A DNA stretch of 56,246 bases from a virus. The stretch covers positions 1 to 56,246 of the IMG/VR virus record IMGVR_UViG_3300021335_000019; one strand, 5' to 3'. A model generated the notes under the pieces. That model was not told where the DNA came from. It searched no databases and was given only the letters and a program-made list of their open reading frames with translations. A program made the translations under genes and the position numbers. Shown one piece after another: positions 856-46,354 of the stretch (the stretch's first letter is position 1; every line of letters begins with the position of its first letter).

Positions 856-1095
856 TCAGGCGGCGGTGAGCACTAGCTCGAAGACATCCCAGCGAAGATC
901 AGCAACGTGGGCGCGTTTGAACTCCACATCCTGATCGATGAACCAGCCAGCGAATGCTTTGATCGCATCCCGCTCGCTGGCGTAACCGCCTTGCTTGATG
1001 CCAGTGGGCACGGTGCCGGCGAAAGAGTAGCCCTTGGAGCCACCAATGACGTGAGTACCAAAGGTGCCGATGGACAGCAGAGGAGCGGTGGACAT
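856..1095 (-). CDS. hypothetical protein (79 aa)
   Basis: Minus-strand ORF starting MSTAPLLSIGTFG. I chose the ATG at 1095 over the longer frame starting at 1323. It is preceded by the recurrent leader (ATGATTACATCAGTC, then CACCACCCAC, then ATG), and the longer frame overlaps the neighbouring gene at 1176-1445. The protein has a Gly/Ser-rich N-terminal half that looks like beta strands (GYSFAGTVPTGIKQGGY) and a helical C-terminal half with a Trp-containing strand. Family unknown. It ends a transcript, since an intrinsic terminator follows directly. Confidence 0.6.
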   Translation of the reverse strand: MSTAPLLSIGTFGTHVIGGSKGYSFAGTVPTGIKQGGYASERDAIKAFAGWFIDQDVEFKRAHVADLRWDVFELVLTAA

Positions 1096-3339: not shown

Positions 3340-4298
3340 AGGTCATCGAGTCCCGCAATCTCGACTTGACCTGGTTCTCGGGTTGATTCAACTGCGATCT
3401 CCATGTTCTTGATCGCTTGCTTGTAATAGCTTTCCTTCAACTCAATGCCAATACCACGGCGACCAAGCGATACAGCACCGTAAACCTCAGACCCAACACC
3501 CATGAAGGGCGTAAGCACGGTTTCGCCTGGATTAGATCGCAAGCAAATTGCCCGATCGATCACATCCAACTGCAACGGGTGAACGTGTTTTTCATCATCA
3601 GGATCTTTGCTATCCCTGAATGGCAACACTCGGCCCATGTTGATGTCATCCCAAATCGATGATGCGTATCTGCGCCAGATCCAATGGCTGAACCTATTTT
3701 CGGTTTGCTTGCCTTTCCAGTTGCGATACCCATGTAGTTCTTGCGGAATAGGGCATTCGCCTGCGTAGTGGTCAAGGCCGGTAGTATTTGCGATTGGTAT
3801 TGGATTGCTGCCACTGCGGCGAAAAACCAGCAAATAATCAGCAGATGCAACGCCGGCATAAGCAGCATCATCAACGATTGTTTTGTGCGCAAGATTCTTA
3901 ACCATCGTGCGATTTCGCACCCACAGCGGCTCTTTCCAAATCGTATGACGTGCCACAAAATGCCAGCCCAGCTTTTGATGCAGCTCGATGATCTTGCCCG
4001 GTAGATCCAGTAGCGCATCTTGACCGCTGTTGCCAGTTGGAATGTCAGTGCAATGCACAGCGGTCAGTCGGCCAGGCATCGTCAACCTGTGCAGTTCTTG
4101 AATCACAAAGCCGTAATGATCCATGAATTGGTCATAGTCGCGGCAGTTGCTGATGTCACGCTCATTTGAGCTGTAAACATACAATCCAGCAAACGGTGGT
4201 GAATAGATTGAAAAATGAATGCTTTCGTCCGGCAGGTCTTGCATTACTTCAATGCAGTCGCCGTTGTAGATTGCGTAGCGATCATTGATCACAGCCAT
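3336..4298 (-). CDS. beta-class DNA methyltransferase (N4-cytosine or N6-adenine)
   Basis: A 320-aa site-specific DNA methyltransferase using S-adenosylmethionine. The catalytic motif IV is SPPF at residues 33-36. The SAM-binding motif FMGVGSE lies near residue 265 and is followed by GIGIEL. Catalytic-before-SAM order defines the beta class, and SPPF rather than DPPY favours cytosine-N4. No cognate restriction gene is next to it, so it probably protects phage DNA from host restriction. It sits between two helicases with overlapping starts and stops (10-nt overlap with the SNF2-type helicase), a common phage arrangement. Confidence 0.9.
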   Translation of the reverse strand: MAVINDRYAIYNGDCIEVMQDLPDESIHFSIYSPPFAGLYVYSSNERDISNCRDYDQFMDHYGFVIQELHRLTMPGRLTAVHCTDIPTGNSGQDALLDLPGKIIELHQKLGWHFVARHTIWKEPLWVRNRTMVKNLAHKTIVDDAAYAGVASADYLLVFRRSGSNPIPIANTTGLDHYAGECPIPQELHGYRNWKGKQTENRFSHWIWRRYASSIWDDINMGRVLPFRDSKDPDDEKHVHPLQLDVIDRAICLRSNPGETVLTPFMGVGSEVYGAVSLGRRGIGIELKESYYKQAIKNMEIAVESTREPGQVEIAGLDDL

Positions 4299-12016: not shown

Positions 12017-13361
12017 CGCGATCTTTGCACGGCTTGCGGAGCTGCAGGTTGCGGTACTCGATCGAGCCGAAGACTTTGACCTCGACGCCACATTGCAACA
12101 GATCCATAGTGACCTGCATCCTGGGCAGCTGGATTTCGTAACCGATAGCAGCACTGAGATCATTGGCGTCAGTGCTGGTTATGGCGCTGGCAAAACCAGA
12201 GCATTATGCGCCAAGGCGGTGACACTAGCCGCGGCCAATCAAGGATTCATCGGTACGGTGATGGAGCCAACTGGCCCATTGATTCGTGACATCTGGCAGA
12301 CCGATTTCGACAGCTTCCTTGAAAATTACGGCATCCCATATACCTTCAGAGCATCACCATTGCCTGAATATGTCCTGCACTTACCGGGAGGCGATACGAA
12401 GATTCTGTGTCGTAGCTTCGAGAATTGGTCGCGCATCATTGGCTTGAATCTTGCATGGGTACTGGCCGACGAGATCGATACCGTAACGCCAAGTATCGCT
12501 GATCGCGCATTCCCGAAAATCCTCGGTCGATTGCGATCTGGTAATGTGCGGCAGTTTGGCGCTGCATCAACGCCTGAGGGTTTTAGGTTCCTCTGGAAGA
12601 CATTCGCCAGCGATGAAGCTAAAGCGCGCAGTGACCGAAGGCTGATCAAGATGAAAACCACGGACAACCCGCATCTTCCTGCGGATTTCGTGGAACGCCT
12701 TGAAGCAAATTACGATCCAACATTACTGAAAAGCTATCTTCTCGGAGAGTTTGTCAATCTCGCCACTGGCAGCGTTTATGATCGCTTCGATCGCAGCAAG
12801 CATGTATTCAGCGAACAACCGGACATCAGCCGCGAATCGCTGCGCATCGGTATTGACTTTAACGTTGGCAACACCAATGCCGTGATCGGCATTCGTAAAG
12901 GTGAACGCGCCGTTGTGGTAGATGAAGTGACCGGCATGAAAGACACCGATGCACTAGCAGCTGAGATCCGCAGGCGTTACCCGAAGCACAAGGTTTACGG
13001 ATATCCAGACGCCAGCGGCAACAACCGCAGCACTAATGCAACCCGCACTGACATTCAGATCCTGGAGTCGTATGACATCAGCAACCAATCGCCGCAATCC
13101 AACCCGCCGATCCGTGATCGCGTGAACAACGTGCAAGCGATGCTGGAAAACGGCAAAGGCCGGAACCGGCTGCAGGTGTGGCAAGGCTGCGCCAAGCTGA
13201 TCGAATGCCTGGAGCTGCAATGCTGGGACGAGAAGACCGATCTGCCCGATAAGCAGTCTGGCTTCGACCATCTCAACGACTGCCTAGGTTATTGGCTGCA
13301 TCGCGACTTCTCCATGCTGCACAAGCAGGCAGGCCGCGGCACGGGAATCAGGCTTTACTGA
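12003..13361 (+). CDS. terL: terminase large subunit
   Basis: A 452-aa packaging motor. Walker A is GYGAGKT at 59-65, Walker B is VLADEID near 155, and the coupling motif with the Ser/Thr-rich AASTPEG follows near 180. The RNase H-like nuclease half has the acidic residues IDFNVGN near 284, a second acidic site DASGNN around 340, and the C-terminal DHLNDCLGYWL near 425. It translocates DNA into the prohead through the portal and cuts concatemers. The family resembles the Terminase_6-type large subunits of siphophages. The head genes follow after an early-type gene insert. Confidence 0.95.
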   Translation: MRKGNAIFARLAELQVAVLDRAEDFDLDATLQQIHSDLHPGQLDFVTDSSTEIIGVSAGYGAGKTRALCAKAVTLAAANQGFIGTVMEPTGPLIRDIWQTDFDSFLENYGIPYTFRASPLPEYVLHLPGGDTKILCRSFENWSRIIGLNLAWVLADEIDTVTPSIADRAFPKILGRLRSGNVRQFGAASTPEGFRFLWKTFASDEAKARSDRRLIKMKTTDNPHLPADFVERLEANYDPTLLKSYLLGEFVNLATGSVYDRFDRSKHVFSEQPDISRESLRIGIDFNVGNTNAVIGIRKGERAVVVDEVTGMKDTDALAAEIRRRYPKHKVYGYPDASGNNRSTNATRTDIQILESYDISNQSPQSNPPIRDRVNNVQAMLENGKGRNRLQVWQGCAKLIECLELQCWDEKTDLPDKQSGFDHLNDCLGYWLHRDFSMLHKQAGRGTGIRLY

Positions 13362-13413
13362 GCCAGCTGCAAAACCTGCACACAACGCGGCAAAGCAGAG
13401 ATTAGCTGGTGCA

Positions 13414-13454
13414 TACTTAAGGAGTCAGGGGGAGACCCCACCACACACAGACAA
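13414..13454 (+). promoter_or_regulatory. promoter and GAGA-tetraloop leader, copy 1
   Basis: A -10-like TACTTA (13414-13419) is followed 8 nt later by GGGG-GAGA-CCCC (13428-13439), then ACCACACACAGACAA and the ATG at 13455. No convincing -35 is visible. The hairpin stem differs from copies 2 and 3 but still pairs. Confidence 0.6.
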
Positions 13455-13634
13455 ATGACCTTCGACACCGCAGCCTTCACCGCCAAAGCCAACCAGCTCA
13501 ACAACGAAGACCTGATTGCTGGCTTTGTCGCGATCTATCACGTCGGCGCACAAGCTGCTATCGATGCCTATATCGACGTCTTGGTTGACCGCATCGGCTT
13601 TGACAAGACCAACGCCATCATCTTCAACCTCTGA
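13455..13634 (+). CDS. hypothetical small protein (59 aa)
   Basis: ORF starting MTFDTAAFTAKANQLNNEDL, mostly helical and acidic, with no recognised domain. It is the first of three small genes, each with its own GAGA-tetraloop leader, placed between the terminase and the dNMP kinase. The strong, repeated leader suggests high or early expression. Confidence 0.65.
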   Translation: MTFDTAAFTAKANQLNNEDLIAGFVAIYHVGAQAAIDAYIDVLVDRIGFDKTNAIIFNL

Positions 13635-13651
13635 TCACCTGGGCCCAGTGG

Positions 13652-13716
13652 TTGACAATACCCCTGGGCATACCCAATAATATGAACAAGCCCGAGAGGG
13701 CACCACACACAGACAA
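13652..13716 (+). promoter_or_regulatory. promoter and GAGA-tetraloop leader, copy 2
   Basis: TTGACA (13652-13657), an 18-nt spacer, AATAAT (13676-13681), exactly 8 nt, then GCCC-GAGA-GGGC (13690-13701), ACCACACACAGACAA, and the ATG at 13717. Transcription should start at or next to the hairpin. Confidence 0.72.
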
Positions 13717-13944
13717 ATGACCCTGATCGAAACCACCAACAACGGCACCTTCTTCACCCTTACCACTGAAAAGGGCAACACTGTTGAGGTCAGCACCGCT
13801 AACGGTCAATGCACCGTCTACATCAAGCAGAATGGCAGCCGCCGCCTCAGCTACGGCAAGACCTTCCGCTCTGTTGCTGAAGCTGCCGAGAACTACAAGC
13901 GCCAAGACATCAAGAGTGCCCTCTACGCACTGGCAGAGGCTTGA
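13717..13944 (+). CDS. hypothetical small protein (75 aa)
   Basis: ORF starting MTLIETTNNGTFFTLTTEKG. The first 50 residues alternate polar and hydrophobic positions as in a small beta sheet (TVEVSTANGQCTVYIKQNG). They are followed by a helix FRSVAEAAENYKRQDIK. It resembles in layout the 62-aa product of the next gene, so the two may be diverged paralogues with a beta-sheet-plus-helix fold. Function unknown. Confidence 0.68.
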   Translation: MTLIETTNNGTFFTLTTEKGNTVEVSTANGQCTVYIKQNGSRRLSYGKTFRSVAEAAENYKRQDIKSALYALAEA

Positions 13945-14034
13945 GCCCCTGCCGGGGAGCCTGCAATACAACAGCGCGTGACGCGTAAATACAGGGCACG
14001 TTGTGGCGTGATCCATACCCCGGCAACCAATCCA

Positions 14035-14066
14035 GCAACCTGCACAAGCATGGTTGAGCAGGTTGC
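14035..14066. repeat. 9-bp inverted repeat over a promoter -35
   Basis: GCAACCTGC (14035-14043) and GCAGGTTGC (14058-14066) pair perfectly with a 14-nt loop and overlap the TTGAGC at 14054-14059. It could be an operator or the terminator stem of the upstream gene, but no T tract follows. Confidence 0.5.
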
Positions 14067-14119
14067 ACCATGGCCCGATAATTAGTTCAAGCCCGAGAGG
14101 GCACCACACACACAAGCAA
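14054..14119 (+). promoter_or_regulatory. promoter and GAGA-tetraloop leader, copy 3
   Basis: TTGAGC (14054-14059), a 17-nt spacer, GATAAT (14077-14082), exactly 8 nt, then GCCC-GAGA-GGGC (14091-14102), ACCACACACACAAGCAA and the ATG at 14120. Confidence 0.7.
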
Positions 14120-14308
14120 ATGATCACCTTCACCACCCAGTCCACTCACCACTCCGTCACCAGCAACGGCATCTCCATCGGCATGGTTTATTTGACCCGT
14201 GAAGCTGCTGAAACCGCTGCTGAGCACCTGAACAAAGAGTGGAAAGGCAAGCGCACCTTCGGCGTCAAATCCTGGGAAGCCGAGACTTTCACTTCTCACG
14301 ACGGCTGA
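14120..14308 (+). CDS. hypothetical small protein (62 aa)
   Basis: ORF starting MITFTTQSTHHSVTSNGISI. I chose the ATG at 14120 because the leader hairpin and CACCACACACA tract lie directly upstream; the longer frame starts inside the promoter. The layout is beta strands, then the helix TREAAETAAEHLNKEW, then a basic strand, similar to its neighbour at 13717. No known family. It is closed by a strong intrinsic terminator at 14329. Confidence 0.68.
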   Translation: MITFTTQSTHHSVTSNGISIGMVYLTREAAETAAEHLNKEWKGKRTFGVKSWEAETFTSHDG

Positions 14309-14328: not shown

Positions 14329-14351
14329 GCCCGGCTCACCGCCGGGCTTTT
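14329..14351 (+). terminator. intrinsic terminator, rightward
   Basis: A 7-bp perfect stem GCCCGGC/GCCGGGC (14329-14335 and 14341-14347) with a 5-nt loop is followed by TTTT. It lies 20 nt after the stop of the 62-aa gene. Confidence 0.85.
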
Positions 14352-15492: not shown

Positions 15493-16845
15493 ATGTACTC
15501 CGGGTTTCGCCATTACGACCGGCCAATCGCCAAACGCGCCGTCACCAAAGTCGATGACCCATGCGCGGCGTGGCACGCAATGGAGCCGGCCTGGATCCTG
15601 ATCGAGGATCTCGTCGGAGGCACTGTTTCGATGAGGCGGAGGCATCGCACCTATCTTCCGCAGGAGCCACGCGAGCTTGATGAATCTTACGATGCCCGTC
15701 TTGTGCGTAGCGTATGCCCACCGTACTTGGTCCGCATTGAGCGGATGCTGGCCGGGATGCTGACGCGGAAGCCGGTCCGGCTCAACGACACCGGCGACAC
15801 GATCCGCGAGCAGTTGTTTGACGTTGACTTGCAGGGCAATGATCTGAATACCTGGTGCTACGAAACCGCCCGCACGATGATCCGCTACGGGCATGTCGGT
15901 GTGCTTGTTGATGCACCGCAAGATGGCGGTAGGCCGTACTGGATTGCGTATTCACCCAGGGACATCCTCGGCTGGCGCATTGAACTCGAAGACGGCGCGC
16001 AAAAGCTAACGCAGCTGCGGTTACGGGAAGTGATCACTGAACCCGATAGCGATTATGGCGAGAAAGCAGTCGAGCAGGTGCGTGTGTTGACGCCTGGCGC
16101 GTATGAACTGCATCGCAAAGACGATGACACTGGCGACTTTAAGCTGCATGATGAAGGCACAACAACGCTTGATCGGATCCCGTTTTCGGTTGCCTATTCC
16201 GATCGCGTTGGTTACATGGAGTCGCGGCCACCGCTGCAGGACATCGCTGAGTTAAACCTGAAGACCTATCAGGTGCAATCTGATCTCGACAATCAGCTGC
16301 ACATTTCAGCGGTGCCGATGCTGGCATTTTATGGTTTCCCGTCAAGCGCTGAGGAGGTATCAGCCGGACCGGGTGAAGCCATCGCCTTTCCATCCGAAGG
16401 TCGTGCGGAGTACATCGAGCCAGGTGGCAAGAGCTTCGACTATCAATTCAAGCGGTTGGATCAGATTGCATCGCAGATCAATGAATTAGGTCTTGCGGCA
16501 GTGCTCGGCCAGAAGCTAAGCGCCGAAACTGCTGAAGCGAAACGCATCGACCGCAGTCAAGGTGACAGCACGATGATGGTGATTGCGCAAAATGTGCAGG
16601 ACATGATCGACAACTGCCTGCAATTTCATGCGGAATTTCTCAGCACACCAGAGCAAGCTGGCAGCTGTTATGTGAACCGCGATTTCCTTGGTACCAGATT
16701 GGAACCGCAGGATGTGTTGGCATTGCTGCAGGTTTACACTGCAGGAACAATAACGCAGGAAACATTCCTGACCCGGTTATCTGAAGGTGAAGTGCTTGGT
16801 GATGACTTTGACATCGAAGCTGAACTTGAAGCAACGCAATCATGA
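15493..16845 (+). CDS. portal protein (DUF4055-like)
   Basis: A 450-aa protein starting MYSGFRHYDRPIAKRAV. The order of features matches the DUF4055 family of siphophage portals: an N-terminal segment with YLPQEPRE, the conserved block around RMLAGMLTRKPVRL, a central beta-rich clip/wing, and the C-terminal helical part with QINELGLAAVLGQKLSAETAEAKRID. It forms the dodecameric ring at the capsid vertex through which DNA enters and leaves. It lies upstream of the MuF-like gene, as usual. Its stop overlaps the next start (ATGA). Confidence 0.88.
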   Translation: MYSGFRHYDRPIAKRAVTKVDDPCAAWHAMEPAWILIEDLVGGTVSMRRRHRTYLPQEPRELDESYDARLVRSVCPPYLVRIERMLAGMLTRKPVRLNDTGDTIREQLFDVDLQGNDLNTWCYETARTMIRYGHVGVLVDAPQDGGRPYWIAYSPRDILGWRIELEDGAQKLTQLRLREVITEPDSDYGEKAVEQVRVLTPGAYELHRKDDDTGDFKLHDEGTTTLDRIPFSVAYSDRVGYMESRPPLQDIAELNLKTYQVQSDLDNQLHISAVPMLAFYGFPSSAEEVSAGPGEAIAFPSEGRAEYIEPGGKSFDYQFKRLDQIASQINELGLAAVLGQKLSAETAEAKRIDRSQGDSTMMVIAQNVQDMIDNCLQFHAEFLSTPEQAGSCYVNRDFLGTRLEPQDVLALLQVYTAGTITQETFLTRLSEGEVLGDDFDIEAELEATQS

Positions 16846-44931: not shown

Positions 44932-45154
44932 GGGTTGGGCTCAATGGATGATCGTTGAACTCCCGGTTGAGGAGCAACTCACCCTAGAGAAGCAAGCACG
45001 GACGCCATTGCATCAAGGCAGCAGCGATCAAATCCGGCAGTTGTGCTCAAGCCTGATCCGTCAAAATCACCATCAGCAAAAGCTACTGAAGCAAGCCACT
45101 GGCCGGATCATTGAACTTGAAGCAATGGCAGCGTGCCTTGACATTCAAACGTAG
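44930..45154 (+). CDS. hypothetical small protein (74 aa)
   Basis: Plus-strand ORF starting MGWAQWMIVELPVEEQLTLE with a strong GGAGG six bases upstream of the ATG. It has a strand, then a long helix with IRQLCSSLIRQNHHQQKLLK, then RIIELEAMAACLD, a likely coiled coil. Its end overlaps the 3' end of the sigma factor gene by 47 bp on the opposite strand, and its start overlaps the minus-strand 49-aa gene. Family not recognised. Confidence 0.6.
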   Translation: MGWAQWMIVELPVEEQLTLEKQARTPLHQGSSDQIRQLCSSLIRQNHHQQKLLKQATGRIIELEAMAACLDIQT

Positions 45155-46016
45155 CTGTCTTACCTAATGCGCGCCTAATCTTGATAAATGCGCGATCACG
45201 GCGCTGTCTGATGCGTTCGCGCGATACATTATGCTGCTGCGCAATCTTCCTTAATGTCGTCGGTTCATTATCAAACAATCCAAAGTATTTTACGATGATG
45301 TCTCGATCGAAGTCGTCCAGTTGGTCACAGGCAAAATAAAGCCCGGCTTGCCGCTTTTTATCATTGACATCATCGTACAAATCCTCACTATCGGATAACA
45401 TATCAACAAGCGGCGATCCATCTTCTTTGGTAAGTGCATCAAGGCTGGTGTGCATTGTTGAGCGTTCCATGATTAACCGCAGATCACTTGGCTTCATGTC
45501 CATGATCTCGGCTACTTGATCTAGTGTTGGCAGCACACCATGAGCCTGCCTGTATTCGTTTTTGATCTTGAATGCACGGTTAACTTTCTCCAGCGCATTG
45601 GTTGGTATTCTTACAGCACGGTCATACGATTCAATTCCGCGATTCATCGCTTGTCTGATCCACCAATAGGCATAGGTGCTGAACTTATAGCCGCGTGCAC
45701 CATCAAACAGCTCCGCTGCGCGTTGCAATCCGACCGTACCTTCTTGAATCAAATCCATGTGATCCATGGCAGCGCCACGGATTCGTGGTGCAAAAGTACG
45801 GCTTACATGCACCACAAGTCTGAGGTTGCATTTGACCAGCTCCTCACGCGCGCGAAGCCCAGATCTAATCTCACGGCGTTCAGTATTGGTCGGGTTAGGC
45901 TTATCACGCAGATCCTGCCAACGCTTGACGCGCCTGGACAGCTTGATCTCTTGATCCGTGGTCAGCAGTGGATACTTGCCGATCGCATTAAGATAATCGC
46001 GCATTACCTCAGGCAT
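45108..46016 (-). CDS. RpoD-like RNA polymerase sigma factor
   Basis: A 302-aa sigma-70 family protein starting MPEVMRDYLNAIGKYPLLTT (region 1.2). Region 2 is NLRLVVHVSRTFAPR, then MDHMDLIQEGTVGLQRAAEL and the promoter-melting segment GYKFSTYAYWWIRQAMNR. Region 3 is near GVLPTLDQVAEIMDM. Region 4 is RDIIVKYFGLFD, then TTLRKIAQQHNVSRERIRQR. It resembles group 1/2 cyanobacterial sigma factors and lacks the long region 1.1. I chose the ATG at 46016 because CCCCACCACCCACTG lies directly before it. It probably redirects host polymerase to phage promoters. Confidence 0.9.
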   Translation of the reverse strand: MPEVMRDYLNAIGKYPLLTTDQEIKLSRRVKRWQDLRDKPNPTNTERREIRSGLRAREELVKCNLRLVVHVSRTFAPRIRGAAMDHMDLIQEGTVGLQRAAELFDGARGYKFSTYAYWWIRQAMNRGIESYDRAVRIPTNALEKVNRAFKIKNEYRQAHGVLPTLDQVAEIMDMKPSDLRLIMERSTMHTSLDALTKEDGSPLVDMLSDSEDLYDDVNDKKRQAGLYFACDQLDDFDRDIIVKYFGLFDNEPTTLRKIAQQHNVSRERIRQRRDRAFIKIRRALGKTATFECQGTLPLLQVQ

Positions 46017-46031
46017 CAGTGGGTGGTGGGG
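46017..46031 (-). promoter_or_regulatory. CCCCACCACCCACTG leader of the sigma gene
   Basis: Minus strand: CCCCACCACCCACTG directly precedes the ATG at 46016. It contains no Shine-Dalgarno. It belongs to the CACCACCCAC leader group. Confidence 0.5.
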
Positions 46032-46045
46032 AAGACCGGCGAATC

Positions 46046-46354
46046 TTAGCACTGATCTTGGTGCAACCACAACCAAATAGTGCCTTCAGCTTCAGCGGTC
46101 CAGAACGGTTGCAGCCGGAACCACGCTACCCAGTCATCAGATCCCTTGCGTGAGTTGCAGTTTGCGCAGCAGCTTATCAAGTTCGCTCGGTCAGTGTGTC
46201 CGCCTTTGCTGCGTGGCCTGACGTGATCCAGCGTTGTCGCTGGATTGCCGCAGTAAGCGCAGCGGTGTTCCCATGCTTCGAGTATCGATTGCCTGAATTG
46301 ACGCTTAGCGTGACGACGTGGCACAAGGTAGCAGCCATCGATGCAGTGATCCAC
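46046..46354 (-). CDS. HNH endonuclease
   Basis: A 102-aa protein starting MDHCIDGCYLVPRRHAKRQF. A classic McrA-like HNH core at residues about 33-70: CAYCG, then TTLDHVRPRSKGGHTDRANL, then CCANCNSRKG (two Cys pairs and the DH-N-N catalytic set). It is small and free-standing, so it could be a homing endonuclease or a packaging/DNA-processing nuclease. It lies between the metallophosphoesterase and the sigma factor. Confidence 0.85.
   Translation of the reverse strand: MDHCIDGCYLVPRRHAKRQFRQSILEAWEHRCAYCGNPATTLDHVRPRSKGGHTDRANLISCCANCNSRKGSDDWVAWFRLQPFWTAEAEGTIWLWLHQDQC

Follow-up and report, generated by a model that had tools for sequence, protein, structure and literature searches.

A covariation-supported GNRA hairpin leader, predicted to lie at the mRNA 5' end, is repeated before small genes in a cyanosiphovirus-like genome and its uncultured relatives

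Secondary structure at the 5' end stabilises mRNA because RppH and RNase E both require 5' ends that are single-stranded, and in E. coli the ompA and papA leaders are 5'-terminal stabilising stem-loops (PMC3997798). Repeated elements that accompany phage genes have also been described. For T4-like phages, PeSL (promoter early stem-loops) cassettes are described as repeated promoter and stem-loop units that accompany gene shuffling (PMC4503421). In cluster K mycobacteriophages, SAS and ESAS repeats lie just upstream of many small-gene start codons, with SAS being a fixed 13-bp sequence resembling a ribosome site and ESAS containing 17-bp inverted repeats of conserved sequence (PMC3203893). The PhotoRC-I/II, psbNH, manA and wcaG motifs occur in putative 5' UTRs of cyanobacteria and cyanophages (PMC2864571, Rfam).

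The window analysed here is a 56,246-base virus record from IMG/VR. Its genome is cyanosiphovirus-like, and the nearest cultured matches of its large terminase were found in S-H1 (77%) and KBS-S-2A (75%), both cultured cyanophages with Synechococcus WH7803 as host. Three small genes (59, 75 and 62 codons) occupy the interval from the end of the terminase gene at 13361 to the portal gene at 15493. Every one of them has, in order, a promoter-like sequence, a hairpin of 12 nt and an A/C-rich leader ahead of its ATG, as follows.

13412 to 13417, + strand: -10 element CATACT of promoter 1, placed by the alignment of 38 leaders, 10 nt before hairpin 1
13428 to 13439, + strand: hairpin 1, GGGG-GAGA-CCCC (covariance model R1, 58.4 bits; predicted energy -6.8 kcal/mol)
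13440 to 13454, + strand: A/C-rich leader 1, ACCACACACAGACAA, 15 nt to the ATG
13455 to 13634, + strand: 59-aa gene, with no family match above cut-off
13652 to 13681, + strand: promoter 2, TTGACA-18-AATAAT, sigma-70-like
13690 to 13701, + strand: hairpin 2, GCCC-GAGA-GGGC (covariance model R1, 43.2 bits)
13702 to 13716, + strand: A/C-rich leader 2, 15 nt to the ATG
13717 to 13944, + strand: 75-aa gene, with homologues in 13 viral loci
14054 to 14082, + strand: promoter 3, TTGAGC-17-GATAAT, sigma-70-like
14091 to 14102, + strand: hairpin 3, GCCC-GAGA-GGGC (covariance model R1, 45.2 bits)
14103 to 14119, + strand: A/C-rich leader 3, 17 nt to the ATG
14120 to 14308, + strand: 62-aa gene, with a weak DUF7336 match under the Pfam cut-off (E = 9e-4)
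about 14329 to 14351, + strand: intrinsic terminator closing the three-gene cassette, a 7-bp GC stem followed by TTTT

The hairpins that a sequence-only reading had placed upstream of the genes at 13455, 13717 and 14120 were thus located at 13428, 13690 and 14091, each with its ATG downstream and each directly preceding ACCACACACA. That reading had also put every hairpin exactly 8 nt after the -10 element. This holds for copies 2 and 3 and fails for copy 1, in which an 8-nt spacing would need TACTTA as the -10; the relatives align CATACT instead, a -10 whose position after the terminase gene is conserved in S-H1 and KBS-S-2A. Within the 56-kb window no further hairpin of this type was found, the next covariance-model match having an E value of 3.8.

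To identify relatives, loci were fetched by means of the terminase and the 75-aa protein. At least about 38 distinct leaders from uncultured cyanophage contigs could be aligned; these loci are metagenome fragments, some on contigs from the same samples, and all counts refer to distinct leaders, not independent events. The compensated stem changes noted among the three window copies extend across the relatives to nine stem types (GGGG, GCCC, GGCG, GCCG, GCGG, GGGA, GGGC, GCCA and GGCA), all perfectly complementary in the 38-leader set. The fetched loci contributed GGCG-GAGA-CGCC, GCCG-GAGA-CGGC, GCGG-GAGA-CCGC, GGGA-GAGA-TCCC and GGGG-GAAA-CCCC, and pattern scans and a survey added, among the matches listed, the stems GGGC, GCCA and GGCA and the loops GCGA and GGGA; among the matches listed for two wide pattern scans, chance matches predominated. 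The loop is mostly GAGA and rarely GAAA, GCGA or GGGA, all of them GNRA and on the sense strand only. The spacing from the -10 to the hairpin is 8 nt in most GCCC-type leaders, 9 nt with GGGA and 10 nt in nearly all GGGG and GGCG leaders, and the distance from hairpin to ATG is 15 to 18 nt in 31 of 35 sites. The leaders are 89% A+C (46% A, 43% C) and carry no Shine-Dalgarno motif at a usable distance. Bare hairpins have predicted energies of -4.4 to -6.8 kcal/mol, and the leader and AUG of the window copies are predicted to be 87 to 91% unpaired. Stems may be mixed within one phage, with GGGG and GCCC in the window and GGGG, GGCG and GCCC in contig L027.

From the 38-leader alignment, whose members were chosen for pairing, it was found that three of the four pairs had changed on both sides, giving 47 doubly changed cells with no one-sided changes and no mismatches; none of 500 shuffles reached as high. 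A pairing-blind site was therefore also used, defined as [N]ATA[N]T followed after 8 to 10 nt by NNNN-GAGA-NNNN, a leader of at least 70% A/C and ATG. Among the loci retrieved solely through protein homology, all 19 GAGA sites were fully paired, with six stem types represented, and in the same loci full pairing was found at 22 of 266 sites with any four-base loop and at 3 of 247 with loops other than GAGA. Across all of the approximately 350 loci, 31 of 34 GAGA sites were fully paired, compared with none of 15 for the control loop AGAG and 2 of 198 for CNRA, ANRA and TNRA. When IMG/VR was scanned with six stem positions left free, 4/4 pairing occurred, among the matches listed, only where a promoter and an ATG surrounded the hairpin. 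Pairing was likewise retained in homologous leaders wherever the GNRA element was present, loss of pairing in such leaders being what the sequence-only reading had said would count against it. The observation is thus confirmed as real and far from chance, and the structure and placement of the hairpin are well supported. Pairing of the stem is kept and its sequence varies, as is characteristic of a 5'-terminal stabilising stem-loop.

Several other GAGA hairpins were encountered. In L104, a 156-kb contig, a late-promoter-like TATAAATA is followed by GACC-GAGA-GGTC, with a covariance-model E value of only 0.09. At L037 2605, L172 10515 (- strand) and L278 approximately 1022 to 1064 (- strand), another hairpin with a T run stands between the GAGA hairpin and the ATG, immediately before the latter, and resembles an attenuator within the leader. 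GAGA hairpins that have 3-bp stems (GCCGAGAGGC and ACCGAGAGGT) and no promoter are present a short way upstream of an ATG within operons at L240 1208 (- strand), L295 771 and L113 2701, and are perhaps Shine-Dalgarno hairpins; those of GCCGAGAGGC in L240 and L295 lie between genes, 7 nt before the ATG, and were counted apart from the family.

An Rfam 15 scan of the whole window identified no family above the gathering cut-off, and a permissive Rfam scan of the locus gave zero matches to the hairpins. The 12-nt GNRA hairpin itself was found in no cultured-phage record, either by BLAST against 50,697 phage records, in which two leader consensuses gave no relevant match, or by covariance model. 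Weak matches to covariance model R1 (E = 0.008) were obtained in S-H1 and KBS-S-2A, however, revealing a sister hairpin that was detected by the covariance model only and missed by BLAST of the leader consensuses. Its layout is CATACT-TGCATCAA-GCGGG-[AG]CAC[AG]AG-CCCGC-ACCACCCCACAA..ATG, with a 5-bp stem and a 7-nt loop; in its promoter spacing and A/C leader it matches the GNRA family. It was located at three sites.

S-H1 (MK105819.1), 3491 to 3537, - strand: sister hairpin, matched by covariance model R1
KBS-S-2A (HQ634187.1), 13823 to 13869, - strand: sister hairpin, matched by covariance model R1
Contig L031, 1578 to 1624, - strand: sister hairpin

In S-H1 it lies upstream of a 198-base gene annotated as hypothetical. 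As S-H1 and KBS-S-2A are cultured, the question of function can be addressed in a laboratory host. Alternative leaders after the terminase gene in KBS-S-2A, L030 and L032 to L035 carry GGAGG..CCTCC or a close variant, followed before the start codon by a second hairpin, GCAGCC-CAGA-GGCTGC.

As the sequence-only reading had proposed for the window, the genes behind the hairpins are small phage genes: at least about 53 leaders head some three dozen unrelated gene clusters, and the cassette genes of the relatives are mostly 44 to 90 codons long. The leader may for this reason be regarded as a portable expression module. A single gene can also be found behind different leaders or stems. The 75-aa gene has the hairpin in about nine of its 13 viral loci, with five stems (GCCC, GGCG, GGGG, GGGA and GCCG) represented among its homologues. 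The post-terminase leader drives this gene in L058 and L061 and the 59-aa gene in the window, in which the 75-aa gene has a separate leader of its own. Two homologues (L088 and L089) have the promoter and A/C leader without a hairpin and two others (L073 and L091) have a different hairpin; thus, the hairpin appears to be a useful add-on and not essential. The 75-aa protein of the window is itself a mosaic, with its first approximately 28 residues matching the L027 lineage and the remainder the L088/L089 lineage, and comparison of these sequences points to a crossover within the gene. The exchanges of genes and leaders and the mosaic protein together indicate that the leader is a plug-in expression unit to which the hairpin is an add-on. 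The resolution of the 75-aa gene tree was too poor for stem changes to be counted. A genome scan identified two phage-like contigs, both in marine bins; L118 and L119 (PAQM01000014.1 and PBTG01000079.1), which carry the 75-aa gene on phage-like contigs binned to Crocinitomicaceae and Myxococcales MAGs, are probably misbinned cyanophage contigs.

Three further features of the window were recorded. An imperfect 16-bp inverted repeat with a spacer of 0 (14035 to 14066) overlaps the -35 of promoter 3 and is a possible operator; a related CCTGC..GCAG arrangement lies upstream of promoter 1. A phage-encoded sigma factor of the sigma-70 family (45108 to 46076, - strand) comprises regions 1.2, 2, 3 and 4, shares 62% identity with that of KBS-S-2A, is related to group 2 factors of S-CBS1 and S-CBS3, and may select the hairpin-leader promoters. 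Between the second and third cassettes lies a 74-nt structured RNA (13951 to 14024, + strand), with a closing stem GCCGGGG/CCCCGGC and two inner hairpins, for which six pairs changed on both sides across 13 copies. RNAs of this type stand after several unrelated cassette genes in the relatives. Against Rfam sRNA-Xcc1 (RF02221; gathering score, 53), the window RNA scored 28.5 bits and that of L240 44.9 bits (E = 3e-5), both below the gathering score, and the RNA appears to be a phage-borne, diverged relative or member of this family.

The element is probably, though far from certainly, a portable leader made up of a sigma-70-type promoter, a 5'-terminal GNRA hairpin protecting the mRNA and an open A/C-rich ribosome landing site. 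A start about 7 nt after the -10 would place the 12-nt GNRA-capped hairpin within about 0 to 4 nt of the first base of the transcript, in agreement with the earlier proposal of a hairpin at the very 5' end of the RNA; this placement derives from promoter geometry and the 8- to 10-nt spacing. With the 5' end buried in the hairpin, poor engagement would be expected of RNase J (a 5'-3' exonuclease) and the 5'-end-dependent RNase E of cyanobacteria, both of which require that end to be single-stranded and free. The unstructured A/C-rich stretch of 15 to 18 nt that follows would serve as an open 30S landing site, one ribosome footprint long, between hairpin and AUG, and short messages for tiny phage proteins could thereby live longer under infection-raised RNA decay. 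One cyanophage raises host RNase E during infection, and antisense RNA is thought to shield its own transcripts (PMC9692554); a leader shielding short phage messages would fit such a setting. Cyanobacteria possess RNase E and RNase J with no RppH recognised (PMC10989914), and consequently the pathway known from E. coli may not apply to them. Other points weigh against a stabiliser: a 4-bp stem of the stated energies is small, some homologous genes (those of L088 and L089) lack the hairpin but keep the promoter and the A/C leader, and it is not obvious why a bare stabiliser would need a GNRA loop almost throughout.

This last point leads to the main rival of the stabiliser, a protein that reads the GNRA hairpin. 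A phage or host protein bound to it could influence either translation or the transcript as it is being made, as a translational regulator or the lambda boxB/N antitermination system does. The lambda boxB hairpin folds in a GNRA-like way as well, and the loop of the present element is nearly always GAGA even though other stable loops would hold the stem equally well. An antiterminator could make use of the intrinsic terminator after the cassette and of the terminator-like hairpins and T runs before the ATG in L037, L172 and L278. However, stems differ within one phage (the window and L027), so that any such protein would have to be indifferent to the stem; a hairpin at about +1 to +4 leaves no room upstream for a boxA-like motif; and no candidate RNA-binding or N-like protein was evident among the cassette proteins. 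Protein binding is accordingly rated as rather unlikely, and of the two roles suggested by the sequence-only reading, a 5'-end stabiliser or a protein-binding element, mRNA stabilisation fits better because the letters of the stem are free and its complementarity and loop class are fixed. A related and likewise unlikely suggestion, to which slightly less weight is given, is that the hairpin is a phage-wide tag for a dedicated RNA-binding or polymerase-modifying factor and the tagged small ORFan genes are one regulon; if so, new genes would join the regulon simply by landing behind the leader.

The leader could alternatively be mainly a DNA linker, with identical promoter-leader blocks recombining homologously to swap small genes, as proposed for PeSL; the hairpin would then be kept for this purpose and have no RNA role. 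The same leader does precede some three dozen unrelated genes, one gene is found behind different leaders, two lineages are combined in the mosaic 75-aa protein of the window, and a 75-nt block resembling an RNA is shared after several unrelated cassette genes. A recombination linker should nevertheless keep its sequence, yet the arms vary with pairing retained and the GNRA loop is on one strand only. We consider this reading unlikely, and gene shuffling is likely to be a consequence or co-benefit of the leader and not the reason for its hairpin. It is very improbable that the hairpin acts in initiation or early elongation by forming in the exit channel, blocking backtracking or pausing near the promoter and so raising promoter output: given the tight 8- to 10-nt spacing, the hairpin would emerge from the polymerase ahead of all other RNA, but the distance to the AUG is equally tight, which is not predicted by a role in early elongation. 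Chance, or one leader copied three times in one genome, can be set aside almost entirely, for although copies 2 and 3 are 87% identical over 39 nt, none of 200 first-order Markov windows contained such a site and the covariation across relatives refutes it. Three other candidates were ruled out. A DNA operator is incompatible with arms that vary with complementarity kept and with a strand-specific loop. A hairpin sequestering a Shine-Dalgarno sequence does not agree with a hairpin that ends 15 to 18 nt before the AUG, nor with the absence of GGAG/GAGG from the GGGC, GCCA, GCGA-loop, GAAA-loop and GGGA-loop variants. An intrinsic terminator or attenuator is excluded as every hairpin precedes A/C-rich sequence with no T run.

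This covariation-supported structured 5' leader is new to Rfam and occurs in viruses of abundant photosynthetic bacteria, where it is a sequence handle for collecting dozens of unrelated tiny phage genes, with expression probably shared. Should the stabiliser reading be correct, it would represent a natural minimal stabiliser, about 30 nt long overall, from a host that has both RNase E and RNase J and no recognised RppH, useful there for studies of 5'-end-dependent decay and as a genetic part.

Among known systems, the PhotoRC-I/II, psbNH, manA and wcaG motifs are similar in being structured RNAs in putative 5' UTRs, some of them in cyanophages, but they are distinct, larger and tied to photosynthesis or sugar genes. 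SAS and ESAS resemble the leaders as repeated elements before small phage genes, partly with inverted repeats. The leaders, in contrast, have a 4-bp variable stem and a GNRA loop 15 to 18 nt before the AUG, and the SAS repeat GGGATAGGAGCCC is absent from them. The boxB hairpins of lambda and P22 likewise have a short stem capped by a GNRA-like loop, close to where a phage transcript begins, and the GCCC/GGGC stem shares letters with boxB; however, the loop here has four bases on a 4-bp stem instead of a pentaloop on a 5-bp stem, there is no room for boxA 5' of the hairpin, and several stems occur within one phage. PeSL, which are composite terminator/promoter units, are also repeated around exchangeable small variable genes. 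They belong to T4-like phages, whereas the genome described here is cyanosiphovirus-like, and its stem-loop follows the promoter and is part of the transcript, with ACCAC and no T run after the hairpin. The ompA and papA leaders share with this element a hairpin at or near the first transcribed nucleotide (predicted in the present case), an unstructured leader and conservation of complementarity rather than sequence. Unlike them, the hairpin described here is of 12 nt only with a GNRA loop nearly always present, and it is repeated, at fixed spacings from the -10 and the AUG, before dozens of unrelated small phage genes.
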